Of a stretch of DNA of 64,000 nucleotides, positions 27,184-62,303 are shown in pieces; position 1 is the first letter of the stretch, and every line of letters begins with the position of its first letter. Location of the stretch: the NCBI GenBank assembly GCA_964019415.1, contig OZ025883.1, forward strand, positions 2,332,086 to 2,396,085, read 5' to 3'. Below the pieces are notes generated by a model. The model was not told the origin of the DNA. It worked only from the letters and a program-made list of their open reading frames with translations, and searched no databases. The translations under genes were made by a program, and so were the position numbers. This DNA is from Ianthella basta (lineage: Eukaryota > Porifera > Demospongiae > Verongiida > Ianthellidae).

Positions 27184-27540
27184 ACTCCATTCTTCCCTCA
27201 GTACCGTCGTCCCCCAGCTCCCAGCCACTAACAGAGGACCCTCCCCAGAGATGGAGGTGCTGACAACAACACAACAAGGTATGTTCCATGCAGTGTCACT
27301 ACACATGAATGCGCCTCACATTGTACTGAGCTAGTGTGGGTGATGTGTCTGTGTGTGATTGTATGCTTGTGTGTTGGGAGAACTGACCCAAGCCTCTGCA
27401 CTATATAAATTGAGCTGCCGCAGAACACAAAAGAGTCGTTCGTAGCACCTCTGTGTATGCATACAAGTACGCATGTCATTAGTCTATGTGCTGTATGATG
27501 TGTCTGTTAGCCCCTGCTGTGAGTGATGAAGCACCTCTTG

Positions 27541-27609
27541 TATGTTTCCTTCACATGTGCAGAAGTTGTGGTCACCTTTGACAGATTCTGCACATGTGAG
27601 GGAAACATA
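27541..27609. other. Perfect 24 bp hairpin, pre-miRNA-like or MITE
   Basis: 27541-27564 and 27586-27609 pair over 24 bp with a single G-U wobble (TATGTTTCC...GGAAACATA), with a 21-base loop. It could fold as a small RNA precursor on either strand, or be a tiny foldback element. I did not see it in the other array units. Confidence 0.4.
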
Positions 27610-27720
27610 TGGTGCGGTGGTCAAGGAAGGTTAGTGTGGTGCCTACCTTGTACACAGGCACAGCTTATATATACAGTATATGGCTGAGCTAGAAAGTGTC
27701 TAACTCACCTTTGTGTGTCT

Positions 27721-60000: not shown

Positions 60001-60833
60001 AGCTTCAATGCTTCATGCAGTGTCACTACACATTAGTTAACAGTGTTCCGAGTTTGGGAGGGACTATTAGATGTACTTGTGTGTGTGTGTACAGTATATC
60101 ATGGACTGCTGTGGATGTTTCCTTTGTATCCTTGCTTTATCCTACAGGAGCAGCCTCCTCAAGAGATCAGGAACGCAGAATTGTGCTCTGTCAGCCAGTG
60201 CACTTTGTGGGTAAGTCTCTCCATCCTCAGCATGGGTCTATGAGGGCATGTGGCTACCTCACTGTGAGGGCACCCCATGGGGTGGATTTGGGGTGGGCTG
60301 GCAGAAACAGGACGTGTGTGTGTGTGTGTGTGTGTGTGTAGAGTATTGCACTCTATTGCCATTTACCTCTTTTTGTCATACCCAATCCCTCCCCCCCTTT
60401 CCTCCCCCACTCAGGTCACAGGCAGTGTGTCATGCTGTTCAGAAGGTTTGTGAGCCGGAATGCAGCAGGCAGGGGGCGGGCAGTGCTAGAGGGGGTGGGG
60501 CTAGCCTCTGAAGCCATTAGGATGTGTTACTCCAACTCACTCCATGACGAGGAAGAGGCTGTGCAGTCGGGCCTGAACAGGTGGAAGGACGGTGAAGGGG
60601 TCACTCCAGCCACGTGGAATGTGCTATTTGAAGCAATGGACTATGCTGGTATTGCTGTACAGCACATCACATCACTGGAGGAGGAAGTCCTCAAAGGTAC
60701 AGTCCACAGTCAGCTGGTCAACTGAGCATGTTTTGTTTGCTGTAACTAAAGTTTGGACACTTGCTTCCTCTGAATGTTGAGCACTTCCTACTCCTTTGTA
60801 CCTGCAGCTCCACTCTCTTCAGACCTGCCCTGA
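57067..60833 (+). CDS. ROCO gene 3: intact ANK-Roc-COR-Death protein
   Basis: Exons 57067-59347, 59511-59627 (linker), 60148-60210 (Death leader), 60415-60696 (Death), 60808-60833 (stop TGA) join in phase to 922 residues. ANK repeats span residues 1-195; Roc P-loop GNAEHGKST 205-213, G3 DFAGQ 263-267, G4 position SFLD 331-334; COR about 440-565 (VGHALFLPK, LFSGSQGKVN, LYFPALV); a conserved post-COR region runs to 760. The Death exon reads GRAVLEGVGLASEAI, LNRWKDGEGVTPATW, YAGIAVQHITSLEEEV. The final stop is a TCA to TGA change in what is a linker elsewhere, so the Death domain becomes C-terminal. Inferred role: cytosolic receptor in which ankyrin sensing controls a Roc-COR switch and the Death domain recruits adaptors, comparable in plan to NLRs and DAPK1. 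Upstream are a CRE octamer and an untranslated first exon. The only ROCO copy here without a coding lesion. Confidence 0.85.
60313..60339. repeat. (TG)n microsatellite
   Basis: About 13 TG units in the intron between the Death leader and Death exons of ROCO gene 3. Confidence 0.9.
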
Positions 60834-62303
60834 GTACCGTCCTGGCTGTACCTGCTCTGGTCCTACCCACTACGCAGATGGAGACACCCACTTCCACATT
60901 GACTCCACCCCCACCTTACAAGCAGTGAAGCTGTTCATTGTATTCAGTACAAAACTCACAGAACATTGCTTTACAGTGTTACACTTGTAGGGTATAATCT
61001 TATTTTTTGTGTATTTTTGCTTAATGATATTCATGTCCGAGCCCCAATCAGCTGTAAAGTGGTCCACGTGTCACGTGTGCATGAGCAGCACAGCAAGGTA
61101 TGCTCCATACAGTGTCACTACACACGAGTGCACCTCACAGTGTACCAAGTGTGCAGGTGTGTCCCTACGTATACTGTCTCGCTGATGGAGTCTCATTCAA
61201 TCCACTAACCCCAAGTGTCATGTGGTGACCCCTTAGTGCACAGAGGAGGTTTAGTGTGTGGCTCAGCTAGCAGTGGACATTCAGATTTTGTGCTAATCCT
61301 AATTGGGAAATGGGAATTCCCCTTCAGCTGCTTACCATGTTATAAGGTTTGTGTGTCTTCCCTTTCCATGCAGCTGTACAAGTTCTCAATGACTTTCGGG
61401 ACCAGTTCATTGTGGAAATGGATGCTAACGCTGTCGTTTTGGAACTTCTACACAACAATATCATTGATAGAGGTGACCAGAGGACAATCACGGCAAACAC
61501 TAATCCAACACAGCAGAATCAGTTTCTTCATTTGATATTGAAGGAGAAGTGCATTGAGGATGTCTTTGAGACCTTCTGTGATATCATCACTGCAGTAAAG
61601 GGCAACCCAAAAATGAAAACTTTGGGTGAATCTATGAGGAGGAGACTGGAGACAGGTGGTATATGTGTGTGGGGAGGAGACTGTGTGCATGGGTGCATGT
61701 GGTTGTGTCTGTGTATGGGAATGTTGTGTGCAGTGTGCATGGATGTGTCTGTTGAAAGAGGTGTATGTGTGAATGTGTACTTGAAGGGGTTGGAGCATCA
61801 CACTAGTGAGTGGTTCCTATAACCTACTCTGGTCCCACCCCCTTCTCAGATGGACACACCCAATTCACTATTGACTCCACCCCCACCTTGCAGCCATCAG
61901 GAAATTTGTTGTCCGTGAAGTTGCTGAGCACTGGATCCTGATAGCCGTCTACCTTGGTTTTGAGTCCTCTGCTATCATGATGACCAAGACTGACCAAAGT
62001 GAGCATGCTTGCACAGCAATGTTTGAGTGGTGGTTGTCATGGGAACTAGGAACAGAGGAGAAGGATCGGACTTGGCAAACTGTGTTGTCAGCAGTAGAGT
62101 ACGCTGGACCAAGGCCTTCTCACAGCAACTCAAGACAGAGCTGTTCAGTCTCCAATGATTTGACCCCATGCAGCAGTACAGAACTCGCAATACATTGTAA
62201 CTATACATACACAGTACTAGTATATTGTGTTGGTGTGTTCACTGTATCTGTATTGTATATAATGTTTTGTAAAATTTTTGTTGCCAACTGTCCTCAAAAA
62301 TAA
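60834..62303 (+). pseudogene. Left-over CARD and second Death exons after ROCO gene 3
   Basis: After the TGA at 60831, the unit still holds a shortened linker fused to a tail exon (about 60877: GDTHFHIDSTPTLQAVK), a complete CARD exon 61374-61655 (AVQVLNDFRDQFIVEMDANA; 282 nt, phase 1-1) and a tail exon from 61850. In the tail exon one lost base near 61892 separates the start (FTIDSTPTLQ) from a second Death-like domain in another frame, 61893-62303 (AIRKFVVREVAEHWILIAVY, later FEWWLSWELGTEEKDRTWQT). The CARD exon could be used by alternative splicing past the TGA-bearing exon. The last domain suggests the ancestral gene ended in a Death domain, of which genes 0 and 1 keep only the stub SQAMKP or SQARKP. 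Confidence 0.65.

Follow-up and report, generated by a model that had tools for sequence, protein, structure and literature searches.

The window analysed here (64,000 nucleotides of the Ianthella basta genome, C16:2332086-2396085, where C16 is contig OZ025883.1 of the 209 Mb, 96-contig assembly) probably holds, according to predicted gene models, tandem genes for ankyrin-repeat (ANK) Roc-type GTPases of ROCO/DAPK1-like layout with exchangeable phase-1 CARD and Death tail exons. The C-terminal signalling part of each protein would consist of a spacer linker exon, followed by CARD or Death exons and then by a terminal exon. We number the units from u0, a 3′ remnant, and write R for the ANK-Roc exon, L for linker, C for CARD, s for small exon, D1 for Death exon and t for truncated terminal exon. 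The exons modelled in the window are the following.

28306..28497, + strand, first part of the u0 ZU5 exon (192 nt, phase 1-1; PF00791 E 0.028, below the cut-off)
to about 28657, + strand, remainder of the u0 ZU5, which changes frame (frameshift about 28,548)
29380..29481, + strand, u0 linker exon (102 nt)
29833..29891, + strand, u0 truncated terminal exon (DGHALLNVDSIPTSQAMKP-stop)
35304..37648, + strand, unit 1 ANK-Roc exon and COR-position region (frameshift near 37,100)
37812..37919, + strand, unit 1 linker L1 (108 nt)
38194..38475, + strand, unit 1 CARD exon 1 (282 nt; nearer to the CARD of unit 3, 82%)
38635..38751, + strand, unit 1 linker L2 (117 nt)
39037..39318, + strand, unit 1 CARD exon 2 (282 nt; similar to the CARD of unit 2)
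39520..39636, + strand, unit 1 linker L3 (117 nt)
39788..39846, + strand, unit 1 truncated terminal exon
44537..46259, + strand, unit 2 Roc exon, without ankyrin repeats, and COR-position region
46436..46534, + strand, unit 2 linker L1 (99 nt)
46814..47095, + strand, unit 2 CARD exon (282 nt)
47294..47410, + strand, unit 2 linker L2 (117 nt)
48010..48072, + strand, unit 2 small exon (63 nt, phase 1-1)
48260..48541, + strand, unit 2 Death exon D1 (282 nt; PF00531 E 0.0046)
57067..59347, + strand, unit 3 ANK-Roc exon and COR-position region (open)
59511..59627, + strand, unit 3 linker L1 (117 nt)
60148..60210, + strand, unit 3 small exon (63 nt)
60415..60696, + strand, unit 3 Death exon D1 (282 nt)
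60784..60841, + strand, unit 3 broken linker head with 24 bp of the preceding intron, adjoining terminal-exon-like sequence (read as an old junction)
61086..61097, + strand, last 12 nt of a unit 3 linker, where homology to CARD-type units starts (junction within the linker)
61374..61655, + strand, unit 3 CARD exon (282 nt)
61894..62300, + strand, unit 3 terminal Death part D2 (PF00531 E 0.039; one base out of frame with the DGH... leader)

Both a reading of the sequence and a script recovered the one 3′ remnant and three units of the original prediction, with ankyrin repeats in the large exons of units 1 and 3 and none in that of unit 2. Units continue beyond 62.3 kb, where the original description stops, to at least C16:2.534 Mb, and the large exon of unit 1 is frameshifted near 37,100; a 99% identical copy 39.7 kb downstream is open at the same place. 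The window and 100 kb on either side were scanned with the module models (264 kb in total, including 2500 N). In the upstream 100 kb, no module model matched at E 0.01 and BLAST matches were at chance level (E 0.05 or weaker); the downstream 100 kb contains a series of + strand units. The array scan and the genome-wide matches together give at least 13 Roc exons in C16:2.368-2.534 Mb. The order of modules is L-ZU5-L-t in u0, R-L-C-L-C-L-t in u1, R-L-C-L-s-D1 in u2, and R-L-s-D1 in u3, followed there by C and a terminal Death exon. A second ZU5 remnant, u4 (as u1), u5 (as u2) and u6 (R-L-s-D1) come after u3; u7-u10 have the order R-L-C-L(-L)-terminal Death, with u9 carrying part of its second linker. 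This order, taken with the anatomy of the terminal exon, gives a common plan of ANK-Roc, linker, CARD, linker and terminal Death, from which the other tails deviate. The stretch from 27.2 kb recurs from 66.9 kb as a segmental duplication (offset 39.7 kb), and the Roc exons of u1/u4 and u2/u5 are 99% identical; the alignment of u5 begins at residue 4 of an ankyrin-bearing query, whereas the u2 exon has no ankyrin repeats. Frameshifts or stops interrupt the Roc exons of u1, u5, u7, u8, u10 and the unit at 2530712, so some sensor-tail combinations may never be expressed.

Other features of the window lie beside or between the units. A GNAT acetyltransferase frame (25164-26090, + strand) is located immediately 5′ of the array start, and Tc5/CENP-B-type DNA-binding domains of the transposase kind (49018-49629, − strand) are located between units 2 and 3. 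Pieces of a non-LTR retroelement (18917-22273, − strand) include, each in its own frame, a reverse transcriptase (PF00078, 1.3e-31) and an endonuclease (PF14529). On each side of the originally described units lies one of a pair of similar small ORFs (..SEADLM.AWNAWKA..; 15729-16289 and 63365-63742, + strand), with no Pfam match. An open frame at 1518-2954 (− strand) gives a weak BEN-domain match (E 0.0018, below the cut-off).

The exon geometry is largely that described originally: four CARD and two Death exons are each exactly 282 nt, the linkers, expected at 99-117 nt, measure 99, 102, 108 or 117 nt, and the small exons are in phase 1 at both ends with AG/GT borders. The ZU5 half has the expected 192 nt (28306-28497), but the domain, otherwise a feature of PIDD, UNC5 and ankyrin, is not intact (frameshift about 28,548, in both array copies). 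A 63-nt phase-1 exon lies 5′ of each D1 Death exon in the window and was absent from the earlier description. Across the array and six remote loci, both HMM-placed splice dinucleotides are present in 14 of 15 CARD exons, 7 of 7 D1 exons, 9 of 9 small exons and 19 of 28 linkers; the linker misses fall seven times on the acceptor side and twice on the donor side. The first linker of unit 2 and the second linker of the remnant have a shifted acceptor; in unit 2 the downstream acceptor is used because the usual AG is lost. The first linker of the remnant is damaged and measures 54 nt with the nearest in-phase AG.

The terminal exon codes for DGH or EGH, then ..PTL., and then, to judge from HMM or BLAST matches in 8 of the 16 units examined, a Death-like domain (D2). 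Leader and Death part share one frame in seven of the eight D2 units, u3 being the exception: from its leader (window 61849-61895) there are 44 bases to the Death part versus 45 in the seven other units, which breaks the frame. The idea that unit 3 alone has gained a splice acceptor at the edge of the Death part was dropped, as most other units also have an AG there. In u0, u1 and their copies, the terminal exon stops early and corresponds to a truncated start of the Death-bearing exon. Truncated terminal-exon sequence also lies 3′ of the unit 3 D1 exon; the CARD and last Death exon of unit 3 may therefore be an orphan tail.

Structure prediction had been set beforehand as the test by which the CARD and Death assignments could fail, and it came out in favour of both. 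The CARD exon is modelled as a six-helix bundle with a split helix 1; the CARD exon models are of high confidence and their top Foldseek hits are CARDs. The D1 model, also of high confidence, has a Death fold, and Death domains are its top Foldseek hits (the structure alignments use 48 and 50 hits hand-picked from the lists). In PDB, the best match of the CARD sequence profile is the NLRP1 CARD (E 0.0099). These models and matches make it very improbable that the 282-nt exons are lineage-specific helical exons of some other function with no death fold, even though PF00619 (CARD) gave no match at E 1 in the two CARD-exon frames scanned, Pfam Death matches in the window are below the cut-off and no Foldseek E-value is at or below 0.001. 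Genome-wide, none of the 110 Pfam CARD matches listed (best 150 of 367 candidates scored) lies on C16. Since the CARD exons scanned escaped the CARD model of Pfam, similar families may be undercounted in domain censuses. A search of viral contigs with the Death exon gave no match. ZU5 has at least 58 matches in the genome (best 150 of 183 candidates scored), many in open frames; one relative, an open 214-aa frame 78% identical, lies at C16:6.954-6.960 Mb together with linkers, one Death exon and one CARD exon. That cluster has no Roc exon nearby among those scored.

The motifs GNAEHGKST and DFAGQ are read in the ANK-Roc exon, and PF08477 (Roc) matches 10 of the 10 members scanned. In the window's exons Roc falls just short of Pfam's cut-off; the unit 2 exon, at 25.8 bits, is under the Roc cut-off of 27 and clears the general GTPase model MMR_HSR1 (24 versus 21.9); P0004, a relative 44% identical to the window's family, is above the Roc cut-off with 44.4 bits. 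P0004 is a 1670-aa open frame that contains two successive ANK-Roc modules and comes from a contig of 10.4 kb. For the proposal that Roc-COR replaces NACHT as the switch, the scores of unit 2 and P0004 are consistent with a Roc-like GTPase in that position, and COR is unmatched. COR-A gave no match at E 10 among the 10 members, the 24 matches of a genome-wide COR-A search all lie outside the array, and hhalign comparisons with the genome's own COR-A proteins gave probabilities of 3.0 and 0.8. We do not claim a COR domain after Roc; the profile score of 9.9 is below those of all 20 shuffled profiles and the reversed one, though the aligned positions look sensible. Because no COR model matches and the comparison is no better than shuffles, the family is named Roc-like. 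A separate cluster at C20:3.93-4.36 Mb carries COR-A-positive frames of about 1170-1360 aa, above Pfam's cut-off. NACHT has no match at E 1 in the exons of u1-u3, nor at E 10 among the 10 members; a match in P0004 (E 0.013, below the cut-off) covers the P-loop only. Of the two ANK-Roc exons scanned for a protein kinase, those of u1 and u3, neither gave a match. Matches in NCBIfam are solely to generic GTPase and ankyrin-protein models, below their cut-offs, and a PDB sequence search with the Roc part returned only EF-Tu at E 0.48 or weaker.

The effector type is discordant with the Roc phylogeny. In a tree of 16 of the 17 Roc exons (6 outside the array, only 4 Death-first; u11, cut by the end of the stretch, was left out), the four Death-first units are scattered over four positions, giving 4 changes (bootstrap 5%-95% range 4-4); labels shuffled on the tree give a mean of 3.7-3.8 changes, about as many as observed. 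A single clade of Death-first units is rejected (AU p 3.7e-11). Thirds of the Roc exon, analysed separately, give 4 changes each and reject one clade each, so a single conversion tract is no explanation. The tree of the D1 region places u2 and u5 with u3, u6 and the copy at locus L032, and L029 with L031; contrary to this, the Roc tree of the same units places u2 and u5 with L029. The discordance could stem from exchange of the Roc exon instead of the tail.

The flanks of the linkers show where similarity breaks off. Over 365 linker pairs, upstream similarity has a median of 448 bp (limit 450) where the upstream modules are of the same kind versus 5 bp where they differ, and downstream similarity has a median of 438.5 bp versus 80 bp. 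This comparison covers 28 linkers; the u0′ copies, two partial linkers (the middle one of u7 and the second of u9) and the damaged linker at the start of the remnant are not among them. The 365 pairs are all those that remain once 13 comparisons between recently duplicated units (u1/u4 and u2/u5) have been removed. In u3, the linker head at 60784-60841 adjoins terminal-exon-like sequence, and homology to CARD-type units begins at 61086, in the last 12 nt of a linker. These sequence comparisons suggest that linker copies mark the positions of joins. The re-pairing of effector exons with sensor exons, frame kept, that was originally proposed is supported by the variety of tails across the family, the Roc tree discordance and the linker comparison. 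The shared homology would be provided by the linker copies and roughly 80-220 bp of the following intron; unequal crossing-over or gene conversion at the linkers may have combined differing 3′ parts with differing Roc exons, both within arrays and between clusters. Homologous linkers flanking cassettes in one orientation would also suit somatic rearrangement that joins sensors and effectors in immune cells, but this is exceedingly unlikely, since the combinations are already present in the assembly, only intron and linker homology was found, and splicing across introns already joins the modules.

The modules are numerous in the genome: the CARD exon has at least 150 matches among 640 candidates, the Death exon at least 150 among 449 and the ANK-Roc exon at least 65 (58 of 1325 candidates scored). 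Each of the best 40 of 216 linker candidates has a family module no more than 0.9 kb away, measured to 40 typed modules (array, CARD, Death, ANK-Roc and ZU5 matches). Tails were classified for 62 Roc exons (58 obtained from the 65 matches listed after fragments were merged or omitted, 4 from the array scan) by the effectors up to 7 kb downstream, with D a Death exon at least 83% identical to that of unit 3, d the 67-68% kind, and terminal Death left out: R-C 31, R-D 15, R-d 6 (one of which depends on an exon 6.3 kb away), R-C-D 4, R-C-C 2, R-D-C 1 and none 3. The count draws on 47 of the at least 150 CARD matches and 28 of the at least 150 Death matches, located on C16, C2 7.9-8.3 Mb, C11 and C23, with a few single ones on C4, C8 and C21. 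Six remote loci read with the same models agree with this variety of tails; in two of them a small exon replaces the linker before CARD. The output could instead be chosen at each locus by alternative splicing, one gene giving forms with CARD, with Death, with two CARDs or with no effector. Any cassette exon could be skipped with the frame kept, as all are in phase 1-1, and 7 of the 62 loci have two effectors in series, terminal Death exon not counted. Such a choice is nonetheless distinctly doubtful as the explanation, as 52 of the 62 loci have one non-terminal effector exon, which leaves little choice beyond terminal Death, and exon shuffling alone predicts in-phase exons equally.

Purifying selection acts on the CARD, Death and Roc exons, which are kept as proteins, with median dN/dS of 0.25 for CARD, 0.41 for D1, 0.28 for D2 and 0.36 for Roc, and no pair above 1. 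The linker is a loosely constrained, near-neutral spacer (median 0.92; 34 of 83 pairs above 1). The sets comprise 14 of 15 CARD exons, 10 of 16 Roc exons (frameshifted copies left out) and 14 of 28 linkers; only pairs with dS above 0.02 were counted. Under ordinary tandem birth and death, unequal crossing-over would produce random fusions, for the most part neutral or non-functional, and swapping as such would bring no selective advantage. It fits the segmental duplication at 39.7 kb offset, the Roc-less remnants, the frameshifted members and the broken linkers at junctions; we consider it somewhat unlikely, given the purifying selection and the different tails on stop-free Roc frames in several clusters. 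It accounts for the mechanism but not the upkeep, and overlaps with the explanation preferred here.

NLRs, DAPK1 and PIDD combine sensor, switch and death-fold modules, and DAPK1 has the layout kinase-ANK-Roc-COR-Death, with the ankyrin repeats ahead of Roc as in the array. By analogy with these proteins, the preferred reading of ANK-Roc GTPases with exchangeable tails would have the ankyrin repeats bind ligand, the GTPase switch or dimerise, and the exposed CARD or Death domain recruit partners by death-fold assembly; oligomerisation and GTP dependence are presumed of the switch. A tail swap would then change the output (CARD or Death pathway) with the sensor kept, and evolution appears to have changed repeatedly which signal the same kind of sensor sends. 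A wider version is conceivable but unlikely: a modular receptor system in which the linker and its intron flank form a standing recombination joint that re-pairs sensors with CARD, Death or ZU5 outputs, individuals differ in their combinations and in-phase exons add a choice by splicing. Diversification of innate receptors has mostly been described for sensing; in the ANK-Roc family the output side seems to be exchanged, at a joint that can be seen in the DNA, and the family is a testable case of rewiring between CARD and Death pathways with the sensor kept.

Zambounis is said to have described, in 2012, brown-algal ROCO genes with shuffled LRR exons. The original claim that no such cassette array had been described stands for a shared-linker, effector-swapping ROCO array, for which we found no account in the portions of the literature available, but has partial precedents in brown-algal LRR shuffling and lophotrochozoan RLR grafting. 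Searches of the open PMC literature on ROCO/Roc, whose open-access scope makes them weak evidence of novelty, likewise returned no account, in the titles and text available, of CARD/Death exon exchange on ROCO genes.

The available part of one account divides ROCO proteins into three groups and assigns a Death domain to the DAPK1 group (PMC6337361). The array resembles this group, as there described, in its Roc-like GTPase, C-terminal Death domain and lack of LRR (PMC6337361). It differs in that the ANK-Roc exon has no kinase and its open frame begins with its own ATG, and in that the array adds CARD exons, exchanges several kinds of Death exon, has tens of clustered copies and an unrecognised COR. 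Excerpts on the brown-algal ROCO genes describe shuffled phase-2 LRR exons in proposed immune receptors (Teng 2024, PMC11378527). The two systems share ROCO-type candidate immune receptors, exon shuffling and a single phase for all exons (PMC11378527); in the excerpts, however, the algal exons are 72-bp sensor LRR units in phase 2, as against the effector tail in phase 1. Cnidarian proteins combining kinase, Death, TIR and Roc/COR have been reported, in the text at hand (PMC5094078).

In lophotrochozoan RLRs, as far as the text available describes them, CARD, DED and Death domains have been grafted N-terminally (PMC8998645). As in the array, CARD, Death or DED is swapped on one receptor type and the domains are nearly all single-exon (PMC8998645); the receptors are RNA helicases with N-terminal domains and few cross-species cases, and the same text describes no shared linker or tandem array of alternatives (PMC8998645). 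Amphimedon, in the portion consulted, has 357 NCOA6-clade TRADD-N proteins, most architectures with Death-like domains (PMC8195603). These are also lineage-specific and join death-superfamily domains to variable partners, but are built on N-terminal TRADD-N and Death-like domains, and that portion describes no Roc array (PMC8195603). Sponge NLRs, finally, are expanded and carry CARD or Death, according to the available extract (PMC12909245). They share with the ANK-Roc family a sensor, an NTP switch and a CARD or Death output, with both outputs alternating in one family (PMC12909245). In the extract, NLRs have NACHT-LRR and an N-terminal death fold, whereas the array has a Roc-like GTPase, ankyrin repeats, a C-terminal death fold and a repeated linker exon. 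The ANK-Roc family thus adds a GTPase-based counterpart of the NLRs, in tens of copies in one genome.
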